DNA of 64,000 nt. Origin: Owenia fusiformis (taxonomy: Eukaryota; Annelida; Polychaeta; Sabellida; Oweniidae). The stretch covers positions 22,395,181 to 22,459,180 of the forward strand of contig CAIIXF020000010.1 of the NCBI GenBank assembly GCA_903813345.2. The letters run 5' to 3'. Below, in pieces: positions 2,638 through 64,000 of this stretch (within the stretch, counting starts at the first letter, position 1; the number at the start of each line of letters is the position of its first letter). Both the position numbers and the translations under genes were made by a program. Under the pieces are notes generated by a model, which saw nothing but the letters and a program-made list of their open reading frames with translations, made no database searches and had not been told where the DNA came from.

Positions 2638-4107
2638 TACTTGTATCCCTTTCTTGTCTCTCTACCCCCTTCACATGTCTGTTTTACCATCACCATTTTC
2701 TTGTATGCCTTTCTACCCAATCTCTACCCTATCTACTTGTATGTCTCTGCACCCAATTTACTTGTATGTCTCTCTACCAAATGTACTTGTATGTCTCTCT
2801 ATCCTATCTACTTGTATGTCTCTGCACCCAATTTACTTGTATGTCTCTCTACCCTATCTACTTGTATGTCTCTGCACCCAATTAACTTGTATGTCTCTCT
2901 ACCCAATTCACTTGTATGTCTCTGCACCCAATTTACTTATATGTCTCTACCCAATGTATTTGCATGTCTCTGCACCCAATTTACTTGTATGTCTCTGCAC
3001 CCAATTTACTTGTATGTCTCTCTACCCTATGCACTTGTATGTCTCTCTGCCCAATGTATTTGTATGCCTCTGCACCCAATTTACTTGTATGTCTCTACCC
3101 AATGTATTTGCTGTCTCTGCACCCAATTTACTTGTATGTCTCTGCACCCAATTTACTTGTATGTCTCTCTACCCAATGCACTTGTTTGTCTCTCTATCCA
3201 AATTACTTGTATGTCTCACTATCCAACGTACTTGTATGTCTCTGCACCCAATTCACTTGTATGTCTTTGCAGCCAATTTACTAGTATGTCTCTCTACCCT
3301 ATGTACTTGTATGTCTCTCTGCCCAATGTATTTTTATGCCTCTGCACCCAATTTACTTGTATGTCTCTCTACACAATATATTTGTATATCTCTCTACCCA
3401 GTTTACTTGTATGTATTTGCACACAATTCACTTGTATATCTCTCTACCCAATTTACTTGTATGTCTCTCTACCCAATCTACTTGTATGTCTCTGCTCCCA
3501 TTTTACTTGTACGTTTCTCTACCCAATCTACTTGAATGTATCTGCAAACAAATTTACTTCTATGTCTCCCTACCCAGTGTTCTTTTATGTCTCTCTATTC
3601 AATTTACATATATCTCTCTTATCCCATTCACGTGTGTGTTTTATACCCAATTTACTTCCATGCTTCTCTCCCAATTTACTTGTATCTCTCTTTATCTAAT
3701 TTACTTGTATGTTTCTTTACTCAATTTACTTGTCTACCTACCCAATTCACGTGTATGCCTATCTACCGCATTTAGGTGTATGCTCCACTACTAACCAATT
3801 CCCTAGTATGTCTCTCTACCCAATTAACTTGTCTCTTTCTTGCATGTTTTTCTTCCCAAATTCCTTGTTTTTCGTCCTACCCAATTTACTTGTGTGTCGT
3901 TCTACTCAATTTATTTGTATGTCTCTCTAACCAACTTACTTGTTTGTACTCAATTTACTTGTATGCCTCTACCCAAGTTAGTTGTGTGTCCCTCTACCCA
4001 ATTTATTTGTATGTTTCTCGAGCCAACTTACTTGTTTGTCATTCAATCCAATTTACTTGTATGTCTCTCTACCCAATTTATTTGTATGTTTTTCTCCCCT
4101 GTTTACC
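2638..4107 (+). repeat. 25-bp minisatellite array (about 55 copies)
   Basis: A degenerate tandem array of a 25-bp unit that begins ACTTGTATGTCTCTCTACCC and ends with AATTT or a close variant. Two subtypes, TCTCTACCC and TCTGCACCC, alternate irregularly. Occasional 2-bp deletions shorten single units. Copies decay towards both ends, and the part after about 3.55 kb is the most divergent. Since 25 is not divisible by 3 and the unit has no stop in any forward frame, all three plus frames stay open for up to about 350 codons with the same Leu/Tyr/Cys/Ser-rich period. I regard these frames as by-products of the repeat, not genes. Confidence 0.93.
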
Positions 4108-15160: not shown

Positions 15161-15235
15161 CATTGCAGTAGTATACGGCGGGCCTTTCGACCCCCTACCG
15201 GCACCGGTACTTACTGTTCCACGTTCCACGTTCCA

Positions 15236-15261
15236 CCGGAAGTGACGTCATAGGTCACGTG
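15236..15261 (+). promoter_or_regulatory. ETS-CRE composite plus E-box in the TIR
   Basis: CCGGAAGTGACGTCA (15236-15250) joins an ETS site to a full CRE and is followed by AGGTCACGTG, which contains an E-box. The same block is present in the right outer TIR (28819-28833, inverted) and, with one change after the CRE, in the right arm's inner TIR (24762-24776). It is a plausible host-factor-driven promoter or enhancer; no transcription data are available. Confidence 0.45.
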
Positions 15262-16984
15262 TTCCACGTTCCACCGGAAATGACGCAATGTGCACTGGGA
15301 GTAACATAACTGGTCAAAGGTTACTGATAATTGATAAGAGAGGAGTAAACTGATAAGATAATCAAACAAACTGGTCAAAGGTTACTGATAATTGATAAGA
15401 GAGAGCTCAATTGATAAGATAATCAAACAATCACTGTTAAGGTAACCTGGTGACTATGTGATAAGTTATCTTGTTTACTTCATGGATGTTTCATTGTTAT
15501 AGGTCAAAGGTTGATAACAAACTGATAAAATAGCACTATATAAAATAGAGAATATTGCTTTGTTATAAGCAGTGTCTATTTGTAAGAATCTCTTGTAATC
15601 AGCAGTAATCAGCAAAAATACTCAGCACATATAAACAGAGACAATACAGAGACAATACTCGCTGCATATATGGAACACTCTGTATATTCAGGTATTGCTC
15701 CCCTTTATTTGTAGAACAGCACATATAAGCACTGATTATATGTGAAGTTAAGAATACTCAAATATATGCAAACGCAATACTCTGTAACTGTGCAATATAT
15801 TCACACATTATAATTGCTTCTTTCTGATTATATTAAGCTATTTCTAAGTTGCACTGCTCATTTTATAATTGAGCATACAAACATAAAACAGACTATTTGT
15901 GCGTATTTTTCTTTTAAGCATGATAAAACAATACAACTAAAGAATGTAAGTACCGTCCGTAGTTCTTAATGAATATGACTTTACCTGTGTATAATAAGCA
16001 ACTAGATGGATTTTGAAATGATCTATTTTTACTATAATTATGATTATGATTTTGGACAACTTTACAGTCGCGCCAGAAAAGATAGATCTTCCTTGTAGTT
16101 ATCAAAAGTTGCTAATACAAATAGCTTGTGCAAACACGTGTTTTGTATGGTTATCCCCCCCCCCGACCGAAAGCTGGCTACACAATCTCTATCTCTACTC
16201 AATGCAACCTAATTCTTCCTGAGAAGGTATTAAATCTTGGATTATGCATGGGAATTCAATTTTTTACTTTTTCAAATCGCCGCTTTAATTGTTTCCAATT
16301 CCTCATGATCAAAGCAAATGGAAGTCTAGACTTTTTTGGTCATGTTTTCGATTTCAATTATAATCCACACATCAATTCAAAATCATAAAATATAAACCAC
16401 TGGAGCAACGTCCAACAGCTTTTAATCCGCTTAATAAGTTATCAAAACACATTCTTGCCTTTGAATTAAAGCCCATGTTAAATTTCTCCCGGTAAAGTCG
16501 GTATTTAAAAAAAAATTATGACAGGTAATGGAATCGAAAGAAGATTTTATAGTGTTTATGTTTCAATCAGTGTTGATTTCATTGTCTTATATAACTCATT
16601 TACATGAGTTTTCTATTTCCGATGCTTGGTCATAGTTTGCCCGGATAGTTTGTTTATAATAAATTGATTTAAGTTTAAATGGAAAATAAAGATAGTATTC
16701 CAATTTGAATTTTACAAACTGGGTATCAAAAAGCCGGCTTTTTAACTTCAGTTTGAAACTGGCTTTTTTAATGCTGCTTTTTCAGAACTATAGGTTGTAA
16801 ATGCGGTTGCCTTCGTGTACATTTCTATGTTTCGGTGCAGTTTTGTGAAACAAAATGTCATTTTTTGATAATTTGACAATATGAGAATGAAGAGACAAAA
16901 CCCGGGAATTAACAGTTATACAGGCTACATTCCGTCTCATTATCTATGTCGTGATCATTCTAACATAATTCCCATACCTGTTTA

Positions 16985-17215
16985 CAGCTGGGTGTAGGTT
17001 CGCATGGGCGTAGCCAAGGCGGGGGGGTGACACGTGCGCTTGCATTCCCCACCCTCTCAATAAGAAAAAGCAATTTTGCAAAATATGAAAAAACATTGAC
17101 GTCGACATCCAAAAGTTCCGGGGGTAAACGCCGTTCCGGGCCTCGCTTCGTTCGCATTTAGGCAAACCCAAGAAATCTCACCCCCTGAACAATTGCTGAC
17201 TCTGCCCTTGTTCAA
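16985..17215. repeat. GGGCGTAGCC-type repeat inside the CACTA element
   Basis: Starts near CATGGGCGTAGCC followed by a poly-G run, and has GC-rich sequence unlike its AT-rich surroundings. Related poly-G/GGGCGTAGC sequences occur at 10.9, 37.2 and 58.8 kb. It seems to be a secondary insertion; exact edges are not determined. Confidence 0.35.
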
Positions 17216-20200
17216 ATAGTGATTATACATAAGGTTATAAGGTTAGCCATTTTGTGAAATCAAATGAGATAACCTTGACACTAAAATCTATATTCTACAT
17301 GTTCTTTGCATGAAATATCAATTGCGTTTAAAATGAACTTTTTTGAAAGTATGTGAGCCCCCCCCCCCCAGGCAAAAGCTGACAACGAGCCTGTAATATG
17401 ATGAATTGCCTCAGTCTCTTCTCAATTGTGTAATAAGATATTAGGGGACATACATTATTCAGGTGACTTTACTGAGTTAAACTTGCAAACAATATATTTC
17501 ACAATACATGTTTTCTGTAATGCATTTTATCAGAGATAGCCTTGTTTCCATTTCGAATTGGATCTTGCTTTGTTTCTCATTTCCAAATATATTCACGAAA
17601 TTTGAAAGATTCGGTATGCTCAATTGATTATTTGATAATAAAGATAAAGAAACGGGCACATTTATTGCAACTGTTTCATTTGACAGATCAATTAATAAGT
17701 TTTGTGCATGGTAGAGCAAACTAACAAAAAATACCTTTTGACATGCCAGAGCAATATACAAAACTTTAATCCCTTATTATTCAATTCTTGCAAATGAGTT
17801 AAGTTCTCACTAATATTAATCCGTTTGTTATAGTTATTATATGGATTAATTTCTACAGCCGGTGGTTCTAATTTCCGCATAAAAATTATTTTGCAAGGTA
17901 AGTTTACATGTATGTAACGATTGTATAGTCCCCGTGCTACATTGTATAATTAAATTTCTGTTAAATTCAGAAATTAACCGATTATCTCTGAAGGAATACA
18001 AAAGGTAGTTCAACATTTTTAAGAATATAACAAGGCGGGCATGGATACCACGGGGGGGGGGGACTTAGCTAGATTATAATCAGATGTTTGTATTGTTCAC
18101 TTCTAAGGATGTTATTTTAGCAAGTAATGCAATCAGACGGCTTATGTTCAATGGTGTTACTTATAATTAGTGCTGGGATGATTTTTAAATCCATGGGAAA
18201 GTAATATCTGAGATCAAGGCATTTGTTGAAATAAAATATTGAGATTTTAATGATTATTATTGAGACTTTAATGATTTGCTTAAATCATGGTAAATGGCTT
18301 TTGAAACATTTGATTGCAACAGATATTTCAGTTTGGAACAAAATACTCAACCGGGCCGATGAATTGCAGCAAATGTGACCTAGGCATTAGCGAGGAAAAT
18401 ACATTTGACCCAATAATTCCTTGCTGAATCCCTATATAGATAAGATATATATCAAGGCCTACACAAATATTAAATAAGGGTTCCAACAAACACTTTATCA
18501 GTAATCTTAACAACTAAATAAGCCATTTATCTGATTAAAGTATGTCTATCAATTTCTTGATTGCAGATTATTAAAGAGATATTATGTCGGGAGGGGGTCC
18601 AAGATTAATACAATTCTTAAATCACCAGAATGTCATTCAGATTTAATTCTATGAATAAGCTTATTATTTGAAATTAAAACTGAATACATAAAAAAGTGAA
18701 TTATTAGTTTGTATTTTGAATGCCAAGAATGAAAGGGTAATTCTATACAAATCACGAATGCTTCTCCAAACATCCGGCAACAATTGTGCAATTGTGTCAG
18801 GTAATTAGCACTGTTTATGTTTAGATTACTTATTAGAGATGTCAAATCATGGGTTCATCAATATGTAGCATTATGATTGTTCAATATAGCAGCAAAATGT
18901 TGCAGAATTTAGTCTTTCATGTTTTAACAATATCTATTGTTATTGAATAACTGAAGATTAGGGAAGGGTGGATATTGAGCAAGCTGCATGTCTCCGAGCT
19001 ATTGTGCACAAGTAATGATCGTACGTGACACGCACAAAGGTGGTTGACATTTTACTTTGCTTTGCTTGCTCTACGAGTAGTCAATAAATATAAAGCCATA
19101 TGGTGAGAATGTCTACACATTGGCGCAATTTAGCCAGACAGTCGTTTGCTCCACGCCAGACCCTGGAACACGATGAAGCCTCTCGTAAGTGAAAGTTTAG
19201 CTTACTTCTATTTCTCTTTTTATTTCTCTTAATGGATAGATGATTGAGTTTTGATATAAGTAGGTTCGATGAATAAAAACACAATAAAGTCACTTGGCAA
19301 ATTGTTGTAAATATAAGACTTGGCATTGATCTTGATAATTTAATTAATTGATTGTCTTGGAAGGTCCATTATACTGTATGGCTGAACAGTATGCTATAAA
19401 CTGGTGTCTTTGTATCATTGATTAAAATACACAGGAGTGTCTATGTATTTTCAGAGCAGTGTCTCCAGAGCAGTGTATTTGTGTGCAGTGACAGATTTCT
19501 CGCAAAAAAAGAAATCATGTGATAGCTGAATTTACATAGATATTGAGAAACTTGTAGAAGAAAGGAGTTTGAATGGGGAAAGCAGAAATCGGTATCGTAC
19601 GAGAATGTGCTACCGGAAGACAGACCATATCTAACTACAAAAACACAGTTTTCTAGATCAAGCAATATGCATACATTGATTTGGAGCATAATTAGTTCGC
19701 ACCATTTTAAAGATAGAAATATAATGTTACATCATGTACAATGCAATGTAAATATATTTGTTTAGCAGTATACAGGATTGGCCAAAACATAATAATCCTA
19801 TCTATATCCATCAAAATGTTTCATCATATTTTTTTAGTATTGAACATCATGTCATTGTTTTTGAAAATGATTTTAAATACACATCTAAAGAAATTTAAAA
19901 TAAAGTATAAAAAACGTTAAAGCTGTTTATGTGCACTTTTTTCTAACTTGTGTTAACGTGTATATTCAGTTTTAACTCCCGTTTATGCCTGGGTTGATGC
20001 CCAATTCACAAAACAGCGTCTACCAGTCCTCCTAAATAAGCAAAAATATGCATATTTTGTGCTGCATATGATCATAAAGCAATGTCAAATATACCGATCT
20101 TGGCTCCATATATGCTAATGTAGTTAGTTTATATTCTTGTGCATGTCTCAATATAATAACATGCTGCATATCACTTATCTCAAAATATGCAGGAATACTC

Positions 20201-20349
20201 ATGAAAAATGGCGTATATGCAGATCATATGCAAATATAACCAGTGCTAATTTCTATATATATCTAGTATACTCAACTGCTTATATTTGTCTATCCCAAAT
20301 AAGCAGGTATATGCAGTTTCTGCGCTGCATATAATCACAAGTAAACAGC

Positions 20350-20660
20350 AAATATGCAAAGTATGTCTGAATATAAGCAAATATACTCAGTGACAGTACC
20401 CGTATATTCAGTCAGTATTCTCTGTGGATGTTTGTTATATGCAAATGTACGCAGCAAATATGCAAGTATTGCTGAATATAAGCAGTTGTAATAAGTGACA
20501 ATACGCGTATATGCAGTCAGTATTCTCTGTGTATGTTAGTTATATGCAAATGTACGCAGCAAATATGCAAGTTATGTCTGAATATAAGCAGTTGTAATTA
20601 GTGACAATACGCGTATATGCAGTCAGTATTCTCTGTGTATGTTTGTTATATGCAGCTGCA
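20350..20660 (+). repeat. Three tandem ~105-bp subterminal repeats of the CACTA element
   Basis: Units begin at about 20350, 20456 and 20561 (AAATATGCAA...). They share CTGAATATAAGCA, GTGACA.TAC.CGTATAT.CAG and CAGTATTCTCTGTG. The two right-hand units are more alike. Subterminal repeats of this kind are usual transposase-binding regions in CACTA elements. Confidence 0.85.
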
Positions 20661-21711
20661 TATATTTGTGTTCCATATATGCAGTTATTGTCTGCGTTCT
20701 GTCAGTGATGATTACTGTTTATAACATGCAATTCGAAGCAAATAAACACCAGAATTGCTCGTTATTTGCAAGCAATATTCGTTTTTTTATACAGTGTAGT
20801 AAAAAAGATAACTGCAGAACCATTTCAACCAAACAGGTTTTAGCTTGCAGAATTATTTTAACCAATCAGAGTACAGTAATTTTTAACCAATCAGGTTTTG
20901 ACTTGCAGAATCATTTTAACCAATCAGGGCACAGTATGTTTGGATTATTTTAACCAATTATGTTTAGAGTTTCAGAATAATTTTAACCAATCGGGTTGCG
21001 GTATATTCTCATCCAATCAGATAAAAGAAAATCTCCCAATAGAGGAGAATTTCTGCACAATTTAACAAGTTCAGACAGGTATTGAATATTTATAACCAAA
21101 AAGTCTCCTGAGTTATTTTAGAATATTTTTAAATTGTCAAGTTGATCAATTTGTGCTAATTTTTTCTCCAAACGATTACTTGATTCTTACTTTGGAGTCA
21201 TTTTAGAATATTTTTCCAATCTTCACGCTTGAGTGATTTTCGCTTATTTCTTGAGTTTGAGGTATTTAATCACCAAATGGACACTGTATTCTTACTCCCG
21301 ATACATTTTACAATTTTCACGCTTGAGTGATTTTTGGTGATTCCTGGAGTTTCAGGCATTCTTTTACCAAACGATCACTTGATTCTTACTCCTGGGTCAT
21401 TTTAAAGTATTTTTTGAAGTGTCAAGTTTGGGCGATTTCAGTCACTGTTGATCGATTTCTGCTAATTTTTTGGAGTTTAAGGCATTTTCACAAAATAGAC
21501 ACCCACCCACTATACAAAATAACACGCTTTAATAGGCATCTGTTAATTTAACATGCCACTGATAAAAATATAAACCCCTACAAGATAAATAATAAAAAAT
21601 GCTAACGTTAACAGTTTTACAGCAGAACATTTTCGACCAATCAAAGTGTATATGCAAATGAGCTGCAGAACCATTTCAATCAATCAGATCAGATTATTGC
21701 ACTCTTCGACC

Positions 21712-21716
21712 CCACC

Positions 21717-21764
<48 letters not shown>

Positions 21765-21776
21765 GCCGCCGCCTCC
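21712..21776 (-). repeat. GCC/GGC tract at the inner edge of the left outer TIR
   Basis: Nearly pure CCGCCG(CCA) repeats just after a CTTCGACCCC word. Four such tracts exist, one at the inner edge of each TIR of both arms (others at about 23941-24060, 25301-25397 and 27561-27622), and their lengths differ. Confidence 0.85.
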
Positions 21777-21897
21777 ACAGCCGCCACTATCAACAACAAC
21801 CCAACAATAACAGTAAAATGCATTTTAGTGCTTTAGTTGTTTATTTAATATACATATTGTCATTTATACAAATTATTTCATAGTCCATTGTTGATGA

Positions 21898-22332
21898 TCA
21901 CTGTCTGCGTTGACGTTTTCCAGGTGGGCCAGAATACACCATAACATCCCTCTTTTTCTTAGGTTTCTCAAAAAGTCTATTCATCACATTTCCATTATAG
22001 GTGTGGTCAAAGGAATCATTGTCACTCATTTGTCTGTAAACTCTCTTTGATGGCCGATCCCGTTCAGCCATTTCTTTCTGCTGCTTGTCAATTTCTGCCT
22101 TTGCCCTCTGATAAACAGCTTCAGTGGGACTGACGTGTTGAACAATTGGTTCGCGGACTGATGACACTGGTATCCACTTGAGTTTTCCTCGCCTACCATA
22201 TCCAGCGTGTTCTATGACTCTACCTTCTACCTGGGCTCGTATAAACTTCTTCCACACTTCTGGGTCATCCACATAAGGCACTATCTTAGGCATTGTTGCT
22301 TCATCCGTTTCTCTCAAACATCTGATGCTCAT
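21898..22332 (-). CDS. Small basic protein of the Polinton-like element, left arm (144 aa)
   Basis: Identical in protein sequence to the right-arm copy at 27003-27437, where the protein is described. It lies 60 bp downstream of the ATPase gene on the same strand. On the far side are a polyadenylation-like AATAAA and the outer TIR. The identity suggests a recent duplication or ongoing gene conversion between the arms. Confidence 0.75.
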   Translation of the reverse strand: MSIRCLRETDEATMPKIVPYVDDPEVWKKFIRAQVEGRVIEHAGYGRRGKLKWIPVSSVREPIVQHVSPTEAVYQRAKAEIDKQQKEMAERDRPSKRVYRQMSDNDSFDHTYNGNVMNRLFEKPKKKRDVMVYSGPPGKRQRRQ

Positions 22333-22392
22333 GACTAAGGTTTCTCTTTATATTCTCATCGTAGTGACTAAAAGGGACTACCGAACGTTCAT

Positions 22393-23829
22393 TCACAAAA
22401 TCTCACTACGTTCTTCTTCCATCTCACCAGATGTATCTGTATCTTCTGAATCATGTCCGTCAATAGACGCTTCATCGTTAAACATTTCATCAGCGATATA
22501 AGAATATTTGGCCAAAGTTTTTCTGATAGCTCTCGACAGAGACATGTCTTGATCAACTAAGAATTCAATTTCTTCTACTATTTCTCGATGTACATCGGCA
22601 TCTTTGACTTCAATAAATAACCTCAGAATTTCACCATAGTCATTTAAAAACTCAGATTTTGCTTTGGGATAAAGTTTTGCTTTGAGCTTTTGAGTAATTT
22701 CCTTCTCTGGTAATCCCCTGGTAGTGTATTTTTCATACAAAGTGTCAGCTTCTTTTTTCAATACATCCAACACGTTCTGCTTCAGAGTAGAAAATGTATA
22801 ATTTTCCTTCAAATCTTCAGCATGGGGTTCATTTTTACCAGAGTCTTCATATTGGCAATATTTTTGATGTATGTCTGCATGTTTTGTGGTAATCAACACT
22901 GTTCCACAGTCTTTACAATGGGGGAGATGTAAAACGGAGGGGTTTCTTAGAGTAACATCATCCATTGGACCTGGATACGTAGCATCCAGCTGAGTTGGTT
23001 GAACAATGGTATTTGGTCGGAATTCCGACATATCTTGCCTCTGTTGAGCAGTGGAGCTCCCTGCCGTGTTATAAAAATGTTGAAATGATGTATATGGAAC
23101 ACTTTCTGCAACTTGCTGCAATGCATTAGGCTTAAGCCTCGAACCATCTTCAGTTTCTTGCTTCAGATCCACCACTAAGTAACCAAATGGATTTTCCGTA
23201 GCTTGTCTGTAAATGTCAAGTAAAATATGTGTCTTTCCAGGATACATTTGAGATGCCAAAACACTTATCTGTCTTTGATCCCTCGGGTTCTTGAACACAA
23301 CCAAGTAATGGCTGTTTAAGCTCATTGTTCTGCTTTCTCCATTGGGTGGGAAAATATTTTGTTGTAGCGTGATAATGGATATATTTTTGTGATGAGAACC
23401 CGCTGTGTATAGCAATGTAACTGCCTTGTTAAGGTCCGCCATGAGATCATCTATCACAACCAAATTGGTCACATTTCCATCGAAGTAATCGGGCTTCATC
23501 AAGTCATCGCAAAGTCCCATAACAAACTCGATATGAGGCTGTTTTCTCTTTATTTCTGCATACAAAGGCTGCCATTGTTTGAAGAACCATACTATTCTTT
23601 GTGGTGGTGGATTGATTAATTGTTCGGCTCTATCAATAAGGTCGACAACATAGGTTGTCTTTCCACATCCAGTAGGACCTGCGACAATTTTAGTAAATGG
23701 ATGCCTGAACTGTATAGGTGAGTCGAGATCGAAGTTAGTCTCATCTTTTTTGTGAATGTTTCTCATATGTCTCAGAAGAATATCCTTCCTGGCAAATGTG
23801 CCAGAACACACGGAGCAAATATAATCCAT
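22393..23829 (-). CDS. Zinc-finger P-loop ATPase, left arm (478 aa)
   Basis: Identical in protein sequence to the right-arm ATPase at 25506-26942, where the domains are given. It is transcribed away from the shared centre of the palindrome, so the two ATPase genes are divergent. The frame is intact, with the start and TATA-bearing leader conserved, so nothing here shows inactivation. The CACTA insertion lies beyond the downstream small gene and does not interrupt the coding region. Confidence 0.8.
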   Translation of the reverse strand: MDYICSVCSGTFARKDILLRHMRNIHKKDETNFDLDSPIQFRHPFTKIVAGPTGCGKTTYVVDLIDRAEQLINPPPQRIVWFFKQWQPLYAEIKRKQPHIEFVMGLCDDLMKPDYFDGNVTNLVVIDDLMADLNKAVTLLYTAGSHHKNISIITLQQNIFPPNGESRTMSLNSHYLVVFKNPRDQRQISVLASQMYPGKTHILLDIYRQATENPFGYLVVDLKQETEDGSRLKPNALQQVAESVPYTSFQHFYNTAGSSTAQQRQDMSEFRPNTIVQPTQLDATYPGPMDDVTLRNPSVLHLPHCKDCGTVLITTKHADIHQKYCQYEDSGKNEPHAEDLKENYTFSTLKQNVLDVLKKEADTLYEKYTTRGLPEKEITQKLKAKLYPKAKSEFLNDYGEILRLFIEVKDADVHREIVEEIEFLVDQDMSLSRAIRKTLAKYSYIADEMFNDEASIDGHDSEDTDTSGEMEEERSEIL

Positions 23830-23937
23830 GTTGCCACGTAGATGAGGTTGCGCTGAATGAATGAATCAAGCCTGCTTTTCACTTATATAGTTTTAATACA
23901 TCCCTCTGTTGAATAAAATATGATGAAGGCACAAAAG

Positions 23938-23951
23938 GTGGAGGCGGCGGC

Positions 23952-24029
<78 letters not shown>

Positions 24030-24651
24030 GGCGGTGGCGGCGGCGGCGGCGGCGGTGGTGGGGTCGAAGAGTGCAATAATCTGATCTGATTGATTGAAAT
24101 GGTTCTGCAGCTCATTTGCATATACACTTTGATTGGTCGAAAATGTTCTGCTGTAAAACTGTTAACGTTAGCATTTTTTATTATTTATCTTGTAGGGGTT
24201 TATATTTTTATCAGTGGCATGTTAAATTAACAGATGCCTATTAAAGCGTGTTATTTTGTATAGTGGGTGGGTGTCTATTTTGTGAAAATGCCTTAAACTC
24301 CAAAAAATTAGCAGAAATCGATCAACAGTGACTGAAATCGCCCAAACTTGACACTTCAAAAAATACTTTTTTACCATAGTCACCAGGTTACCTTAACAGT
24401 GATTGTTTGATTATCTTATCAATTGAGCTCTCTCTTATCAATTATCAGTAACCTTTGACCAGTTTGTTTGATTATCTTATCAGTTAACTCCTCTCTTATC
24501 AATTATCAGTAACCTTTGACCAGTTATGTTACTCCCAGTGCACATTGCGTCATTTCCGGTGGAACGTGGAACACGTGACCTATGACGTCACTTCCGGTGG
24601 AACGTGGAACAGTAAGTACCGGTGCCGGTAGGGGGTCGAAAGGCCCGCCGT
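23938..24651. repeat. Left-arm inner short TIR
   Basis: Inverted counterpart of 24700-25397, about 0.7 kb from the GCC tract to the truncated tip. The terminal ATACTACT expected at the end is missing: sequence stops at GCCCGCCGT and runs straight into a 40-nt inverted copy of itself. Confidence 0.85.
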
Positions 24652-24691
24652 ACGGCGGGCCTTTCGACCCCCTACCGGCACCGGTACTTAC
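24612..24691. repeat. 80-bp perfect palindrome at the dimer centre
   Basis: Forty bases ending GGCCCGCCGT are followed with no spacer by their exact reverse complement (symmetry point 24651/24652). An 8-bp linker, GTAAGTGT, then leads to the complete tip AGTAGTATAC of the right arm. ACTTACGTAAGT at the linker forms a further small palindrome. Confidence 0.93.
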
Positions 24692-24699
24692 GTAAGTGT

Positions 24700-25311
24700 A
24701 GTAGTATACGGCGGGCCTTTCGACCCCCTACCGGCACCGGTACTAACTGTTCCACGTTCCACCGGAAGTGACGTCAAAGGTCACGTGTTCCACGTTCCAC
24801 CGGAAATGACGCAATGTGCACTGGGAGTAACATAACTGGTCAAAGGTTACTGATAATTGATAAGAGAGGAGTTAACTGATAAGATAATCAAACAAACTGG
24901 TCAAAGGTTACTGATAATTGATAAGAGAGAGCTCAATTGATAAGATAATCAAACAATCACTGTTAAGGTAACCTGGTGACTATGGTAAAAAAGTATTTTT
25001 TGAAGTGTCAAGTTTGGGCGATTTCAGTCACTGTTGATCGATTTCTGCTAATTTTTTGGAGTTTAAGGCATTTTCACAAAATAGACACCCACCCACTATA
25101 CAAAATAACACGCTTTAATAGGCATCTGTTAATTTAACATGCCACTGATAAAAATATAAACCCCTACAAGATAAATAATAAAAAATGCTAACGTTAACAG
25201 TTTTACAGCAGAACATTTTCGACCAATCAAAGTGTATATGCAAATGAGCTGCAGAACCATTTCAATCAATCAGATCAGATTATTGCACTCTTCGACCCCA
25301 CCACCGCCGCC

Positions 25312-25379
<68 letters not shown>

Positions 25380-25397
25380 CACCGCCGCCGCCTCCAC
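24700..25397. repeat. Right-arm inner short TIR
   Basis: Starts AGTAGTATACGGCGGG and runs to the end of the GCC tract. Compared with the outer TIR (27557-28902) it lacks about 650 bp between GTGACTATG and AAGTATTTTTTGAAG, including the CCAAT-repeat block. It keeps the ETS-CRE block and the paired 61-bp repeats. It contains the upstream promoter region of the ATPase gene. Confidence 0.88.
25223..25245 (+). promoter_or_regulatory. CCAAT box and octamer upstream of the ATPase gene
   Basis: GACCAATC (CCAAT at 25223-25227) is followed by a perfect octamer, ATGCAAAT (25238-25245). The same pair occurs in the outer TIRs. Together with the GCC tract and the TATA box it suggests a host-style RNA polymerase II promoter. 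Confidence 0.45.
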
Positions 25398-25445
25398 CTT
25401 TTGTGCCTTCATCATATTTTATTCAACAGAGGGATGTATTAAAAC

Positions 25446-25453
25446 TATATAAG
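25446..25453 (+). promoter_or_regulatory. TATA box of the right-arm ATPase gene
   Basis: TATATAAG lies about 55 bp before the ATG at 25506, after the GCC tract. The left arm has the same sequence in mirror position near 23882. The spacing leaves a leader of about 25-30 nt. Confidence 0.6.
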
Positions 25454-25505
25454 TGAAAAGCAGGCTTGATTCATTCATTCAGCGCAACCTCATCTACGTG
25501 GCAAC

Positions 25506-26942
25506 ATGGATTATATTTGCTCCGTGTGTTCTGGCACATTTGCCAGGAAGGATATTCTTCTGAGACATATGAGAAACATTCACAAAAAAGATGAGACTAA
25601 CTTCGATCTCGACTCACCTATACAGTTCAGGCATCCATTTACTAAAATTGTCGCAGGTCCTACTGGATGTGGAAAGACAACCTATGTTGTCGACCTTATT
25701 GATAGAGCCGAACAATTAATCAATCCACCACCACAAAGAATAGTATGGTTCTTCAAACAATGGCAGCCTTTGTATGCAGAAATAAAGAGAAAACAGCCTC
25801 ATATCGAGTTTGTTATGGGACTTTGCGATGACTTGATGAAGCCCGATTACTTCGATGGAAATGTGACCAATTTGGTTGTGATAGATGATCTCATGGCGGA
25901 CCTTAACAAGGCAGTTACATTGCTATACACAGCGGGTTCTCATCACAAAAATATATCCATTATCACGCTACAACAAAATATTTTCCCACCCAATGGAGAA
26001 AGCAGAACAATGAGCTTAAACAGCCATTACTTGGTTGTGTTCAAGAACCCGAGGGATCAAAGACAGATAAGTGTTTTGGCATCTCAAATGTATCCTGGAA
26101 AGACACATATTTTACTTGACATTTACAGACAAGCTACGGAAAATCCATTTGGTTACTTAGTGGTGGATCTGAAGCAAGAAACTGAAGATGGTTCGAGGCT
26201 TAAGCCTAATGCATTGCAGCAAGTTGCAGAAAGTGTTCCATATACATCATTTCAACATTTTTATAACACGGCAGGGAGCTCCACTGCTCAACAGAGGCAA
26301 GATATGTCGGAATTCCGACCAAATACCATTGTTCAACCAACTCAGCTGGATGCTACGTATCCAGGTCCAATGGATGATGTTACTCTAAGAAACCCCTCCG
26401 TTTTACATCTCCCCCATTGTAAAGACTGTGGAACAGTGTTGATTACCACAAAACATGCAGACATACATCAAAAATATTGCCAATATGAAGACTCTGGTAA
26501 AAATGAACCCCATGCTGAAGATTTGAAGGAAAATTATACATTTTCTACTCTGAAGCAGAACGTGTTGGATGTATTGAAAAAAGAAGCTGACACTTTGTAT
26601 GAAAAATACACTACCAGGGGATTACCAGAGAAGGAAATTACTCAAAAGCTCAAAGCAAAACTTTATCCCAAAGCAAAATCTGAGTTTTTAAATGACTATG
26701 GTGAAATTCTGAGGTTATTTATTGAAGTCAAAGATGCCGATGTACATCGAGAAATAGTAGAAGAAATTGAATTCTTAGTTGATCAAGACATGTCTCTGTC
26801 GAGAGCTATCAGAAAAACTTTGGCCAAATATTCTTATATCGCTGATGAAATGTTTAACGATGAAGCGTCTATTGACGGACATGATTCAGAAGATACAGAT
26901 ACATCTGGTGAGATGGAAGAAGAACGTAGTGAGATTTTGTGA
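25506..26942 (+). CDS. Zinc-finger P-loop ATPase of the packaging (A32/FtsK-HerA) type, right arm (478 aa)
   Basis: Probably an NTP-driven DNA-translocating enzyme of the kind that packages genomes in Polinton-like and related DNA viruses. Residues 5-26 form a C2H2 zinc finger (C5, C8, H21, H26). The P-loop GPTGCGKT is at 51-58 and Walker B LVVIDD at 123-128. GSHHKNISIITLQQN (144-158) has the look of the sensor strand in this family, and KNPRD and MYPGKT follow at 180-200. A second C2HC finger uses C305, C308, H321 and C325. The C-terminal 150 residues are helical and charged and end in an acidic tail. At 478 aa it is longer than the usual ~250-aa packaging ATPase because of the two fingers and the tail. 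The start is set by the TATA box and the finger beginning at residue 4. The A32-type assignment is from motif memory; a DNA-binding ATPase with another role is possible. Confidence 0.82.
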   Translation: MDYICSVCSGTFARKDILLRHMRNIHKKDETNFDLDSPIQFRHPFTKIVAGPTGCGKTTYVVDLIDRAEQLINPPPQRIVWFFKQWQPLYAEIKRKQPHIEFVMGLCDDLMKPDYFDGNVTNLVVIDDLMADLNKAVTLLYTAGSHHKNISIITLQQNIFPPNGESRTMSLNSHYLVVFKNPRDQRQISVLASQMYPGKTHILLDIYRQATENPFGYLVVDLKQETEDGSRLKPNALQQVAESVPYTSFQHFYNTAGSSTAQQRQDMSEFRPNTIVQPTQLDATYPGPMDDVTLRNPSVLHLPHCKDCGTVLITTKHADIHQKYCQYEDSGKNEPHAEDLKENYTFSTLKQNVLDVLKKEADTLYEKYTTRGLPEKEITQKLKAKLYPKAKSEFLNDYGEILRLFIEVKDADVHREIVEEIEFLVDQDMSLSRAIRKTLAKYSYIADEMFNDEASIDGHDSEDTDTSGEMEEERSEIL

Positions 26943-26982
26943 ATGAACGTTCGGTAGTCCCTTTTAGTCACTACGATGAGAA

Positions 26983-26988
26983 TATAAA
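26983..26988 (+). promoter_or_regulatory. TATAAA between the two genes
   Basis: TATAAA sits in the 60-bp gap between the ATPase stop and the next ATG, only about 14 bp before that ATG. It could serve as a TATA box only if transcription starts inside the frame or the leader is extremely short, so it may be incidental. The left arm has the same sequence. Confidence 0.25.
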
Positions 26989-27002
26989 GAGAAACCTTAG
27001 TC

Positions 27003-27437
27003 ATGAGCATCAGATGTTTGAGAGAAACGGATGAAGCAACAATGCCTAAGATAGTGCCTTATGTGGATGACCCAGAAGTGTGGAAGAAGTTTATACGAGC
27101 CCAGGTAGAAGGTAGAGTCATAGAACACGCTGGATATGGTAGGCGAGGAAAACTCAAGTGGATACCAGTGTCATCAGTCCGCGAACCAATTGTTCAACAC
27201 GTCAGTCCCACTGAAGCTGTTTATCAGAGGGCAAAGGCAGAAATTGACAAGCAGCAGAAAGAAATGGCTGAACGGGATCGGCCATCAAAGAGAGTTTACA
27301 GACAAATGAGTGACAATGATTCCTTTGACCACACCTATAATGGAAATGTGATGAATAGACTTTTTGAGAAACCTAAGAAAAAGAGGGATGTTATGGTGTA
27401 TTCTGGCCCACCTGGAAAACGTCAACGCAGACAGTGA
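27003..27437 (+). CDS. Small basic protein of the Polinton-like element, right arm (144 aa)
   Basis: I do not recognise a family. What can be seen: a GYGRRGK motif at 44-50, a charged helical middle (about 70-95, rich in Glu, Lys and Gln), a nuclear-localisation-like KPKKKR at 123-128, and a basic tail PPGKRQRRQ. The composition fits a nucleic-acid-binding or core protein. It follows the ATPase gene by 60 bp on the same strand, so the two may share a transcript or be expressed separately. AATAAA at 27490-27495 is a likely polyadenylation signal. The left-arm copy (21898-22332) is identical in protein sequence. Any link to virion proteins is a guess from the company it keeps. Confidence 0.72.
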   Translation: MSIRCLRETDEATMPKIVPYVDDPEVWKKFIRAQVEGRVIEHAGYGRRGKLKWIPVSSVREPIVQHVSPTEAVYQRAKAEIDKQQKEMAERDRPSKRVYRQMSDNDSFDHTYNGNVMNRLFEKPKKKRDVMVYSGPPGKRQRRQ

Positions 27438-27489
27438 TCATCAACAATGGACTATGAAATAATTTGTATAAATGACAATATGTATATTA

Positions 27490-27495
27490 AATAAA
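27490..27495 (+). terminator. Polyadenylation signal after the small basic gene
   Basis: AATAAA lies about 53 bp after the stop codon and just before the GCC tract and outer TIR. The mirror sequence is present in the left arm near 21845. Confidence 0.55.
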
Positions 27496-27556
27496 CAACT
27501 AAAGCACTAAAATGCATTTTACTGTTATTGTTGGGTTGTTGTTGATAGTGGCGGCT

Positions 27557-27570
27557 GTGGAGGCGGCGGC

Positions 27571-27618
<48 letters not shown>

Positions 27619-28902
27619 GGTGGGGTCGAAGAGTGCAATAATCTGATCTGATTGATTGAAATGGTTCTGCAGCTCATTTGCATATACACTTTGATTGGTC
27701 GAAAATGTTCTGCTGTAAAACTGTTAACGTTAGCATTTTTTATTATTTATCTTGTAGGGGTTTATATTTTTATCAGTGGCATGTTAAATTAACAGATGCC
27801 TATTAAAGCGTGTTATTTTGTATAGTGGGTGGGTGTCTATTTTGTGAAAATGCCTTAAACTCCAAAAAATTAGCAGAAATCGATCAACAGTGACTGAAAT
27901 CGCCCAAACTTGACACTTCAAAAAATACTTTAAAATGACCCAGGAGTAAGAATCAAGTGATCGTTTGGTAAAAGAATGCCTGAAACTCCAGGAATCACCA
28001 AAAATCACTCAAGCGTGAAAATTGTAAAATGTATCGGGAGTAAGAATACAGTGTCCATTTGGTGATTAAATACCTCAAACTCAAGAAATAAGCGAAAATC
28101 ACTCAAGCGTGAAGATTGGAAAAATATTCTAAAATGACTCCAAAGTAAGAATCAAGTAATCGTTTGGAGAAAAAATTAGCACAAATTGATCAACTTGACA
28201 ATTTAAAAATATTCTAAAATAACTCAGGAGACTTTTTGGTTATAAATATTCAATACCTGTCTGAACTTGTTAAATTGTGCAGAAATTCTCCTCTATTGGG
28301 AGATTTTCTTTTATCTGATTGGATGAGAATATACCGCAACCCGATTGGTTAAAATTATTCTGAAACTCTAAACATAATTGGTTAAAATAATCCAAACATA
28401 CTGTGCCCTGATTGGTTAAAATGATTCTGCAAGTCAAAACCTGATTGGTTAAAAATTACTGTACTCTGATTGGTTAAAATAATTCTGCAAGCTAAAACCT
28501 GTTTGGTTGAAATGGTTCTGCAGTTATCTTTTTTACTATTTTATCAGTTTGTTATCAACCTTTGACCTATAACAATGAAACATCCATGAAGTAAACAAGA
28601 TAACTTATCACATAGTCACCAGGTTACCTTAACAGTGATTGTTTGATTATCTTATCAATTGAGCTCTCTCTTATCAATTATCAGTAACCTTTGACCAGTT
28701 TGTTTGATTATCTTATCAGTTTACTCCTCTCTTATCAATTATCAGTAACCTTTGACCAGTTATGTTACTCCCAGTGCACATTGCGTCATTTCCGGTGGAA
28801 CGTGGAACACGTGACCTATGACGTCACTTCCGGTGGAACGTGGAACGTGGAACAGTAAGTACCGGTGCCGGTAGGGGGTCGAAAGGCCCGCCGTATACTA
28901 CT
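27557..28902. repeat. Right-arm outer long TIR (1.35 kb)
   Basis: From GTGGAGGCGGCGG to the tip GTATACTACT. It carries the complete set of TIR parts: GCC tract, octamer, diverged ~100-bp repeats, the CCAAT-repeat block (here read as CTGATTGGTTAAAA), the paired 61-bp repeats, and the ETS-CRE block. It holds the intact site that corresponds to the CACTA insertion in the left arm. Confidence 0.9.
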
Positions 28903-28908
28903 CATTGC

Positions 28909-36746: not shown

Positions 36747-37399
36747 TAGAAACCCATTAGTGATTTGACTATCTCCTTAAACATTGCTTCAAATGTTGCT
36801 GCGCTATAGTGTGCTACGGATCCTTCATATTCGGAAGTCATACCATGGACTTAAAGCCTATATACTGGACGAGCGTGGTGTAAAAGTCAGTGGTTTTGAA
36901 AAATGGCAAATTTCTCTTTATGTAGATTAATTGTGGTTTATTATTCTACATTGATTCTAAAAACTATTGGTGTCTAGTTTTCAGCGTTTTTGAAATATGT
37001 AGATTTATACCCCCTGGTGTGATTTTAAGGGGGTACTAGGAAAGCCATGTATATATACAGTACAACCAATCATCTTGATATTTACAGGTAATCATCTACT
37101 TATCATGTTCTACCATAATGACAAGTTTCATCAAAGTTGGTCAACTGGTTGCTTTGGTAACGGAGATCATATGTTAAAAAAGTACACATTTTCGTAAAAC
37201 TCTAAAAAAATGCCTCATGCACCCCCCCCCCATGAGAAATCCTAATTACGCCACTGCTAATTCAATTGAGTAACTTTTAATCAGAGAATTGCATTTTGGG
37301 TCACTCTGTAGAATTCAGCAGGAGGTCTATTATTATACCTTCATATGGTAGTGACACCTATTAAACAATAAAGTTCCTCAAAGAAAGCTACAAAGTAAA
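36747..37399. other. Non-coding stretch with a poly-C repeat fragment
   Basis: Contains ATGCACCCCCCCCCCATGAG near 37.2 kb, similar to the G/C-run repeats elsewhere in the window. Nothing else is assigned. Confidence 0.4.
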
Positions 37400-38762
37400 C
37401 CTAATTTACCGGTTACGAATTTCTAGCTTTATATCCACAAAACATATGTACCACTCTCCTGAGATTGAAACTTTTATGTCATCTGAAGTTACAGTCCACC
37501 AGGATGAGTTCACTAATTCTAAAGATGCTCAATGTGATAAAATTAAAGAATTATTGGACAAGACCACGGCACAGGACACAATCATTTTCACGGACGGATC
37601 AGCTCAGGGAAATCCAGGGCCAACGGGGGCTGCTGCCATAATCTACATCAATGGACTCAGCTCTACACCGATCTGTCTAGGTAAACCAGTGTCGAAACAA
37701 GGTAATAATTACCATGCCGAGATCTACGCACTACGTCTAGCCATGGAATTCACCTGCAATTCACAAACAAACAAGAATATCATAATATTGAGTGACTGCC
37801 AACCAGCCATCATATCATCATTCAATTCCACCAAACTAAAATCACTCAACCAGGACATTCTCTGCATAAGGGACAAATGCAAAACTCTTATCAGCCAAGA
37901 CAAAATATTGAATGTCCACTGGGTCCCAGGACATCTGGGAATCACTGGGAATGAATTGGCAGACAAGTCAGCAAAGTGTGCTGCTAAATGTACTAATCAA
38001 CTTATGCCATCCAATGCAACAAAATCAACAGCATATAAACTGATAAAAGATAACTCTTTATTAATATGGCAGAGAAGATTCAATAATTCTGTCAAAGTCA
38101 GTCAGTTACAACCAAGTATCACCAAGGTTAAAACTAAAAAACCCATTATAGCTATAGGTAATAGAAAAGCCCGCAATGTTATAAATCAGATCATATCTGG
38201 CCATACAAAGCTCAATAGCCATCATAGTAAGATCAATCCCAATGTTGAATCTCCGAACTGTCCTCACTGCAAAATCCCTGAGACTATAAAACATTATGTT
38301 TTTGACTGTTCCAGATTTGAGACACAGAGGGAACAATTGATGGCAGATGTCAACTTTCTACTTCTGGGAGTAAATCATAACCCATATATCACCATCAGGA
38401 CTCTAACTGGCCTAGATAGTGAAATTGACGACAATATAAACACTAAGATCCTCCAGAAATTCCAGGCTTATATAGCCTCGACAAGGAGATTCTAAATTAA
38501 AGAACTTTGTATATAGTAGGAGATAGTGACTCTTTCTCAGGTTAGCTGAAGTAAGCTAACTCATCTACATTTTTATTAAGCTTTCAACTCCTAATACATC
38601 AAAATTAAGCGCTCTCTCTCCAAACCACAAGTACAAAGTATAAGTGATAATTACAAGTGAGAAATGAAACACAAGTGATAAACTGTAGCAAGTGTTCAAA
38701 GGCAGCATAACAGTGCCAATGGCCTTAGACACAAAGGCCTAAAGGAAGAAGAAGAAGAAGAA
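37400..38762 (+). mobile_element. 5'-truncated non-LTR retrotransposon, 3' end
   Basis: Consists of the RNase H-containing end of the pol frame, a short 3' UTR, and a (GAA)n tail at about 38745-38762. Short simple-repeat tails and 5' truncation are typical of non-LTR elements such as the I/ingi-like groups that carry RNase H. The left boundary is uncertain, since the frame stays open for at least 50 bp upstream of the first ATG. Confidence 0.75.
37446..38495 (+). CDS. Pol C-terminal fragment: RNase H plus zinc-knuckle-like motif (349 aa)
   Basis: RNase HI of a non-LTR retrotransposon, which would remove the RNA strand during reverse transcription. The four acidic residues are all present: D50 in FTDGSA, E92 in HAEIYAL, D117 in LSDCQP and D173 in NELADKSA, with the WVPGHLGI histidine at 163. 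A CCHC-like motif follows (C272, C275, H283, C288; CPHC...H...C), usual at the end of such proteins. No reverse transcriptase or endonuclease sequence precedes it, so it is a dead-on-arrival fragment although its own frame is unbroken. The ATG used here is just the first in the open frame and is probably internal to the original polyprotein. Confidence 0.88.
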   Translation: MYHSPEIETFMSSEVTVHQDEFTNSKDAQCDKIKELLDKTTAQDTIIFTDGSAQGNPGPTGAAAIIYINGLSSTPICLGKPVSKQGNNYHAEIYALRLAMEFTCNSQTNKNIIILSDCQPAIISSFNSTKLKSLNQDILCIRDKCKTLISQDKILNVHWVPGHLGITGNELADKSAKCAAKCTNQLMPSNATKSTAYKLIKDNSLLIWQRRFNNSVKVSQLQPSITKVKTKKPIIAIGNRKARNVINQIISGHTKLNSHHSKINPNVESPNCPHCKIPETIKHYVFDCSRFETQREQLMADVNFLLLGVNHNPYITIRTLTGLDSEIDDNINTKILQKFQAYIASTRRF

Positions 38763-60250: not shown

Positions 60251-60368
60251 ACCCCACCTCATTTTGGATTTATGTATCATCATCTATTGCTATTATAATT
60301 ACTAATGTATCGTTTCAGCTAAATAGATTTTGAATTGAAATTGAATGGCATTTTTTATGTTCTTTCAG

Positions 60369-63300: not shown

Positions 63301-63372
63301 AAGAGAAAAAGAAGCCAGGCCGTGCCAAGAAAAGAACAGCTAGTGAAAGTGATCTTGATCTTTCAAAGCAAG
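60369..63372 (+). CDS. ASH1L: ASH1L, large internal exon with AT-hooks (partial gene)
   Basis: It continues exon 1 in phase 0 (VNK|AEVDKNTDTM) after a TTCTTTCAG acceptor. The likely donor is CAAG|GTAATG at 63373 (phase 1), before a stop at 63426-63428. Several AT-hook-type motifs, which bind the AT minor groove, are seen: KRKPGRPKK (about 60736-60762), RGPGRPRKYP (61370-61400), KRPGRPPSS (61620-61648) and KRKVGRPRKSP (61744-61776), with weaker ones at 63112 and 63310. DPAFLAKVEDIIKSINKI (62563-62616) followed by LPIAFQIG matches the 'DPDFIAELEELISRLSEI...LLPTIFRIN' block I recall in vertebrate ASH1L. A long Lys/Ser/Asp-rich stretch follows. The catalytic AWS-SET and the bromo-PHD-BAH modules are not in the window. 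Minus-strand frames here, including one of 251 codons, are shadows. Confidence 0.87.
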
Positions 63373-64000
63373 GTAATGTATGGATGCGCAAACTAAAAAC
63401 TAGCTTTTTTGATATATTCAGAATTTAGGTCAAAATTCATAGTTGTATATCTACAGGGTGAGCCACAAATTATATTGTGTATCATTTTAAAGATAAATAA
63501 TTTCCCAACAATATGACTCCATCTGATTGAAAAACCTTTGTTTTCATGTGGAGCTGGAAGCTAAACTGATACCAGGGGTGTCATGGTCGACCAAAAATCA
63601 AAAAATGTATAATTTCTGAATTTCCCTTCACATCGCAGTCACAGCTGCACTATATATGTTATTGGTGAATTTTAAACTAAACTTGTATAAATGTACCTCT
63701 TTTGAAGGTGCCAAAGTTCAAATTTCCATCCATTTTCCATAATTTGGAAATCCAGTGAATATTATACTGTTGGCCCGATTTTGTTCATATTTTGTACACA
63801 TATACCTTATTGGAATAGAAGTTCTGCTCGAAATCTTATTTTCAAAATGGCCGCTCATTTGAAAATGGCGGCCATTTTAGTGCAGATTTTTATGTCAGCA
63901 TCATTGGGTGATGAAAAATCTAACTTGAAAATGAAGTTTCAGAAAAATTATTATGGAATAAATAGGTTATTGATGGTCATGATGGAATATGAATTTTTCC
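63373..64000 (+). other. ASH1L: Start of the next ASH1L intron
   Basis: Follows the GTAATG donor. It contains a copy of the AAAATGGCC repeat (63766-63885) and nothing else that I can assign. Confidence 0.6.

Follow-up and report, generated by a model that had tools for sequence, protein, structure and literature searches.

A locus of the annelid Owenia fusiformis, studied within a 64,000-nucleotide (nt) stretch of DNA (hereafter the window; assembly GCA_903813345.2, contig CAIIXF020000010.1, positions 22,395,181-22,459,180), probably represents an integrated palindromic dimer of a two-gene satellite of Polintons (Mavericks), the two units of which were fused end to end before integration. Positions given below are those of the window, and genome-wide searches covered its own genome (498 Mb in 525 contigs). 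The original prediction had proposed a palindromic dimer inside one target site duplication, and this is borne out by the outer flanks, which carry the hexamer CATTGC on either side (15161-15166 and 28903-28908; a 6-bp match has a chance of about 1 in 4,096), whereas the hexamers of the inner boundary, AAGTGT and CGGCGG, do not match, and a single duplication thus encloses the pair of arms. Tips of the form AGTAGTATAC are located at 15167, 24700 and 28902, the last in reverse orientation. Self-comparison and arm alignment delimited a left arm (15167-24652, minus strand), the inner tip of which is truncated, and a right arm (24700-28902, plus strand), in which both tips are complete. The arms are inverted copies with identical open reading frames (ORFs): complementarity is 100% along the 3,246 nt of 20797-24042 and 25293-28538, and likewise along the 367 nt of the outer ends (15167-15533 and 28536-28902). 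At 4,220 bp (without an insertion and its TAG copy) and 4,203 bp, respectively, they are nearly identical, their alignment revealing two substitutions in a GGC array, two in the inner terminal inverted repeat (TIR) and one change in array length. The predicted element size of 4.2 kb applies to these arms, but it is not the usual size, because six single units elsewhere measure 5.0-5.7 kb and six more 6.6-19.1 kb.

Structure of the two arms

The TIRs, which have the length expected of Polintons, are unequal within each arm (inner ~670 bp, outer ~1,350 bp). The long outer TIR occupies 27550-28902 (minus strand) in the right arm and two parts on the plus strand of the left arm, i.e. 15167-15533, which is 100% identical to the right outer TIR, and 20797-21787. 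The short inner TIRs, at 23986-24652 and 24700-25371 (both plus strand), are without ~680 bp present in the outer copies; additionally, the left one is without the final tip bases, and the right one carries two substitutions private to the right arm. Each TIR copy is edged inward by a GGC/GGT trinucleotide array (~21717-21785, 23937-24063, 25299-25398 and 27556-27619), the length of which varies from arm to arm.

An insertion of 5,263 bp (15534-20796), present in the left arm alone, interrupts that arm; it has CACTA..CAGTG ends (CACTATATAA / TATACAGTG; 23 of 30 terminal bases match) and a TAG duplication (15531-15533 and 20797-20799). CACT(A/G) ends and a 3-bp duplication are features of the CACTA/EnSpm family, and the insertion possesses both. 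No open frame of at least 120 amino acids (aa) lies wholly within it, nor does any ORF of transposase size; repeats of ~105 bp were observed close to its right end, and it resembles a non-autonomous CACTA/EnSpm element. The original prediction, while correct as to the dimer, had overlooked both this insertion and the rearranged joint between the arms.

The joint and the formation of the dimer

The left arm stops at ..GCCGTA, the remaining tip bases being absent, and is followed by the joint (24653-24699), which consists of a 39-nt fold-back copy of the left tip (24653-24691) and an 8-nt filler, GTAAGTGT, after which the full right-arm tip begins at 24700. As a result of the fold-back, 24612-24691 forms a perfect palindrome with 40-bp arms (centre 24651/24652), and the first six bases of GTAAGTGT close a second palindrome of 12 bp. 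Copied-in bases at junctions are typical of polymerase-theta-type end joining. The joint lies within ~9 nt of a tip and no recognisable host flank is present inside, which speaks for free linear molecules having fused rather than for an event in the chromosome. Furthermore, the junction of the inner-TIR deletion (GACTATG/GTAAAAAAG) is common to both arms and was found at none of the 17 other loci of the same family (family A; L024-L040), 15 of which retain the undeleted sequence (40 loci were compared in total, including 20 short tip pieces and three loci of other families that could not show the deletion). Since both arms have this deletion and L024-L040 do not, the two arms are, to judge from the aligned sequences, most likely descendants of one molecule.

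A pair of sister molecules, or a single molecule that had been copied back onto itself, would thus have joined at the short-TIR ends while linear and extrachromosomal. The dimer would then have been inserted by an integrase as one unit, as suggested by the two outer tips, which are still intact, and the CACTA transposon would have entered the left arm after integration. Other fused or dimeric units integrated as one insertion had been anticipated, and such units were indeed found. In locus L029 a single GAAGTA duplication encloses a complete element and, in the same orientation, a terminal fragment of a second molecule, the two being fused 1 nt before the tip of the complete element; in L032 a second left tip lies 128 bases inside the first (L032:624-752), both within one CCCATA duplication; and five palindromes belong to a second family (family B, below). 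L038 contains extra TIR pieces inside. L029, L032 and L038 are not palindromic dimers.

A single mini-element at CATTGC might instead have been duplicated in inverted orientation after its integration, through replication template switching between its TIRs. These are long and nearly identical inverted repeats, and inverted amplification at inverted repeats is described in the available text on origin-dependent inverted-repeat amplification (ODIRA; PMC4689423). Such an event would, however, have had to leave the joint ~9 nt from a tip without host flank, and CATTGC could have been restored only if another exact switch had taken place at the outer tip; moreover, L029 and the five family-B palindromes likewise have one duplication per unit. 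We consider this history unlikely and favour fusion before integration.

Identity of the two genes

Two proteins of 478 and 144 aa are encoded by each arm, with no third ORF of at least 100 aa in either. The larger (22393-23829, minus strand, in the left arm; 25506-26942, plus strand, in the right) displays an N-terminal C2H2 finger, a P-loop and a second Cys/His cluster. It is placed among the FtsK/A32-type packaging ATPases through its relatives, 35 of 56 of which match Pox_A32 and 14 of 56 Adeno_IVa2 (56 aligned of 122 found). A relative adjoins an RVE integrase with chromodomain in L001, and PolB and an adenovirus-type protease in L002 (where PolB scored 21.2 bits against DNA_pol_B_2, below the cut-off of 25.8), while relatives are located next to integrases in the Owenia loci L041 and L042. 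L001, L002 and L003 are Polinton-type contigs filed under bacterial genome bins, L001 and L003 originating from tubeworm and mussel symbiont bins.

The smaller gene (21898-22332, minus strand, and 27003-27437, plus strand) has homologues that begin at residue 14, giving a 131-aa form (from 27042 in the right arm), and produced 115 matches across the genome. In L042 its relative (34% identity over 87 residues) is flanked on one side by an ORF of 138 aa and on the other by the open beginning of a further ORF, and these neighbours, for which no Pfam match was obtained, may by position and by eye be read as minor and major capsid proteins, respectively. The available part of PMC8097293 gives the vertebrate Maverick order as int, minor capsid, PW and major capsid, and the small protein of the window is accordingly taken, through its L042 relative, as a protein in the PW position.

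No ORF for PolB, RVE integrase, major or minor capsid protein or Ulp1-type protease was found in the arms, and capsid and protease ORFs were likewise absent from the eight single units read. A PHROGs search of the arm proteins gave no weighty match, the best matches in a PDB search were zinc fingers, and no relatives were confirmed among viral contigs. A parvovirus or bidnavirus origin was rejected, as the arms are without a Rep-, PolB- or capsid-like ORF.

Copies of the element and their 6-bp duplications

The family-A tip pattern (at most two mismatches) returned 41 matches in the genome, against 0 for the reversed control. A tip common to the family was thus recovered, as predicted, albeit one that varies by subfamily (AGTAGTATAC, AGTAGTATAG, AGTAGTATAT); the terminal motif, AGTAGT..ACTACT, agrees with the AG(T)/(A)CT ends of Polintons. 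Perfect 6-bp duplications were observed in 34 of 36 tip pairs tested, including the window (21 of 23 in family A and 13 of 13 in family B). Single copies were found to have their own, different duplications, as expected: TATAGC (L025), GTGGAA (L028), GATATC (L030), CATAAT (L031), GATGTT (L034), ACTTCG (L037), TGGGAG (L038) and CTAGTG (L039), alongside those of L029 and L032, and furthermore AAGAGA, CAAGAA, CACACA, GAAGGG, GGTATA, AACGAT, TATATC, CAGAGC, CCTGTT and AATGGT. CACACA is represented by two copies with identical flanks and was entered once in the count. All tips of L024-L040 were listed irrespective of flank; L026, L033 and L036 show one tip and are therefore outside this count.

The TIRs of L025, L030, L031, L034 and L037 measure 1.4-1.8 kb, partly above the range of vertebrate Mavericks. 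In all eight single units read (family A: L025, L028, L030, L031, L032, L034 and L037; family B: L043) the ORFs of at least 100 aa between the tips are confined to those of the ATPase and PW, except that L037 has one additional antisense ORF of 102 aa. In two of these units the ATPase frame, counted from its first ATG, is shortened to 375 aa, L030 having one TGA and L032 having lost the start.

Two TIR-sharing units of 3.55 kb, at C5:23701973-23705521 and C5:23707423-23710971, have identical 81-base pieces at both ends and probably derive from one insertion through a tandem segmental duplication of the surrounding region. Separately, a 7.1-kb unit with family-A tips (C139:11317-18425) encodes an ATPase and a PW protein that are 43% and 67% identical, respectively, and on these identities it is classed as a further ATPase and PW lineage sharing family-A ends.

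Selection and repeated retention of the gene pair

Codons were aligned for 12 complete ATPase frames and for 18 frames of PW, and the ratio of non-synonymous to synonymous substitution rates (dN/dS) was taken from those pairs in which dS exceeded 0.05. The median was 0.21 for the ATPase (33 pairs) and 0.16 for PW (124 pairs), the pairs not being independent. End differences in the PW frames of L024 and L026 inflate the rows of these two loci (0.91 and 0.76 versus the window), and the closest copies, L026, L027 and L028, gave ATPase ratios of 0.52-0.78 on 4-7 changes, counts too small to tell much. On these codon comparisons, both genes are kept by purifying selection, and the constraint appears to have acted on mini-elements, because, as far as their members were read, the two subfamilies under comparison both consist of two-gene units with one layout.

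The genome search with the ATPase produced 112 matches (89 of 260 candidates scored), and 87 places were used after the removal of 25 second segments; for PW, 112 of 115 matches were taken into the count, and for the integrase 111 of 137, the 26 left aside being second segments. At 44 of the 87 places a PW match is present within 5 kb and no integrase match within 20 kb; both kinds of match occur at 10 places, an integrase but no PW match that near at 31, and neither at two. A PolB match within 20 kb occurs at none of the 44 mini loci, compared with 20 of 41 integrase-bearing places. Among the 44, the gene order is ATPase followed by PW on the same strand in 19 (family A, two of them the arms of the window) and in the C139 unit, PW followed by ATPase in nine (family B), and convergent in 15 (family C). 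The ATPases of families A and B are 35% identical.

Deletion derivatives are common among DNA transposons, and the family includes units of 3.3-3.9 kb that share the TIRs but have no ATPase match; the two-gene units might similarly be ordinary dead derivatives of a Polinton, kept by chance and with functionless genes. Such an origin would have to accommodate dN/dS values of 0.16-0.21 among mini-units, frames that are open in most close copies, and the retention of one gene pair across different gene orders, and is accordingly deemed improbable; a satellite with genes under selection is preferred.

Palindromes of family B, and the convergent family C

The family-B tip, AGTAGATAGAAAACTGAGGGCATCAG, gave 35 matches (control 0). 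These bound six units of 8.0-8.5 kb, including C1:13243971-13252138 and one of which L042 is a part, with ATPase, integrase and PW matches and no PolB match, for which they are too short; four smaller units (4.0-4.5 kb; L043 was read) that match the ATPase and PW; five palindromes of 4.9-5.9 kb; two further pairs; and one lone tip. The 13 perfect duplications belong to the five palindromes, five of the 8-kb units and three of the 4-kb units, and each palindrome has a single duplication around both arms.

Seven inverted PW pairs were detected, and tips were located for those on C6, C12, C1, C7 and C10; for those on C9 and C2 none were found, either at the first guessed place or with the tip pattern. 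The C6 palindrome (C6:19981511-19986530), read whole in three overlapping pieces, has arms that are 99.4-99.8% identical. A PW gene of 124 aa is present in each arm, and the element contains no further ORF of at least 61 aa. Tips and centres were read for the palindromes on C1 and C12, and tips only for those on C7 and C10, the arms of which are presumed from the inverted PW pair. By eye, a GGAGGA-rich spacer is common to all three centres read (L064, L079 and L080), and because of this shared spacer sequence the palindromic form itself was probably mobile on three or more occasions. In family C, the ATPase (52-54%) and PW genes converge at all 15 places, including C9:16769220, with no integrase or PolB match near; L081, of which 1 kb was read at one end, displays a AGTAGTATTATC motif.

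Rather than an accident, a dimer might be an obligatory stage of rolling-hairpin replication of the parvovirus type. The hairpin palindrome at the joint would fit such a cycle, as would the five family-B palindromic units, three of which have the same centre; however, the other family-A copies read are no palindromic dimers, there is no Rep-type ORF, the joint is asymmetric, and protein priming is the held view for Polintons, making this explanation a doubtful one. Perfect palindromes are also a known long-read artefact, but a chimeric fold-back read, arising in library or assembly, was judged very unlikely given the non-palindromic flanks, the 5.26-kb insertion with its TAG duplication in one arm only, the two substitutions between the inner TIRs and the unequal array lengths. 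Finally, two independent adjacent insertions, one having lost its inner end (the inner tip of the left arm is truncated), were rejected as extremely unlikely, since the outer 6-mers match each other while the inner do not and since a private TIR deletion is common to both arms (0 of 17 other family-A loci), the genes moreover being identical across the arms whereas seven other close copies differ by 4-16 ATPase substitutions.

Larger relatives and a proposed helper model

By its ends, its ATPase and its relatives, the unit in the window is classed as a Polinton/Maverick derivative, and not as a Polinton in the full sense, because PolB, integrase and capsid are absent. With two genes only, Polinton ends and a 6-bp duplication, it corresponds to the miniature Polinton without its own polymerase and integrase that had been postulated, and since it has such ends and duplications yet no enzymes of its own, trans-mobilisation is the natural reading. 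Larger Polintons with a TIR tip in common, likewise foreseen, were identified for both families. The 13.4-kb element at C5:3929-17338 (duplication CAGAGC) departs from the family-A tip at one position on its left end and at two on its right; it encodes a relative of PW as well as an integrase broken by one TGA, and no PolB match lies inside it. L042 is the larger family-B relative, with ATPase, integrase, capsid-like ORFs, PW and the duplication TGTAAC, and its TIR is 99% identical to that of a family-B palindrome over 751 bp. Integrase-bearing elements with the same tip were therefore found in both families, and no PolB-bearing one; PolB, ATPase, integrase and PW matches occur together at C3:31.50 Mb and on C369.

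In the mechanism that we propose, the protein-primed PolB of a full Polinton would copy the mini-unit, and the integrase of the full Polinton, recognising the tip in common, would join it to host DNA; both steps are suggested by the lack of a polymerase, integrase and capsid in the unit itself. The finger-bearing ATPase and PW would get mini-unit DNA into helper-made capsids. We infer dependence on a helper and a role in packaging, and the proposal that ATPase and PW steer helper capsids to satellite DNA is based on gene identity, constraint and repeated retention. A layered arrangement, in which complete Polintons feed 8-kb polymerase-less ones, with ATPase and PW pairs and heritable mobile palindromes below these, is offered tentatively as a possible extension; if it is true, integrated dimers are a fossil record of extrachromosomal copying and joining.

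Several observations weigh against this account. Within family A the only palindromic dimer is the one in the window, and nowhere else among the tip matches does an oppositely oriented tip follow a pair of like-oriented ones. The ATPase of the window itself reached only 20 bits against Adeno_IVa2 (cut-off 21). The expectation that duplications at such units are always 6 bp was not upheld at two tip pairs: C5:30419611-30424413 has decayed tips and no matching 6-mer, and L040 (841-5528) has both tips but unequal flanks (TATATC versus ACTTAT), the unit possibly being rearranged. Scores were obtained for 111 of 523 candidates with the integrase and for 89 of 260 with the ATPase, and the absence of an integrase near mini-units that were not read is thus no proof. 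Furthermore, with its broken integrase, no ATPase match inside and a TIR identity of just 73-74%, C5:3929-17338 is at most a candidate for the actual family-A helper, and the packaging role of PW is a guess.

Small elements that retain packaging-type genes alone, under purifying selection, would constitute genetic evidence for selected packaging in an animal; Maverick particles were unobserved as of 2021, according to the available part of PMC8097293. Similarly, palindromes with one clean 6-bp duplication suggest an integrase acting on a free linear molecule with two tips, the joints would record the handling of free Polinton ends, and helper and packaging specificity become testable in a worm.

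Other features of the window

Overlapping open frames extend across a tandem-repeat array (CMSLYPIYLYVS-type repeats) at 2474-3699. By eye, an RNase H-like ORF was noted at 37365-38495 and a transposase-like ORF at 40317-41639. A 1,027-aa open frame at 60345-63428 has AT-hook-like motifs, as judged by eye, and is probably an exon of a host chromatin gene.

Comparison with known systems

Phage-inducible satellites (PICI, P4) and virophages are small and use the capsid or polymerase of a helper, and some bring packaging or redirection genes. The Owenia units differ from them in their unrelated genes, their animal host and a helper that is inferred only. Copy-back or snap-back defective genomes and the dimers of adeno-associated virus are palindromic derivatives of linear genomes, from which the Owenia palindromes are distinguished by their integration with a target duplication and by the occurrence of one palindromic form at five sites. 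The concatemers of adenovirus E4 mutants offer a parallel for the joint, as linear genomes are end-joined with loss of bases (PMC7552057, in the text available); unlike the Owenia dimers, they are neither integrated by an integrase nor inherited.

Non-autonomous Polintons are not a new idea, as the Tlr elements of Tetrahymena were once proposed as non-autonomous Polinton derivatives (PMC4028283, in the part available); in contrast to the Owenia units, Tlr elements encode capsid proteins, integrase and helicase. Among open-licence papers, represented mostly by titles and abstracts and so a weak basis, no account was found of small, non-autonomous or palindromic Polintons like these; what appears to be new, as not found in that print, is the two-gene set under selection, together with palindromic units that are integrated and mobile. 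A survey set aside elements of <10 kb as incomplete (available text of PMC4028283), so satellites of this kind may have escaped notice.

The closest comparison is with Polintons/Mavericks (Polintoviricetes) themselves. In the accessible portion of PMC8097293, vertebrate Mavericks are described with (AGT)2//(ACT)2 ends, 6-bp duplications and TIRs of 46-1,447 bp, the intact elements measuring 12.7-24.6 kb and carrying two modules of core genes. The Owenia units differ in being ~4-5.7 kb long with two genes, or palindromes with PW alone, and resemble them in the (AGT)2//(ACT)2 ends, the 6-bp duplication, the long TIRs, the packaging ATPase family and the PW position, and in the presence of integrase- and PolB-bearing related copies in the same genome.

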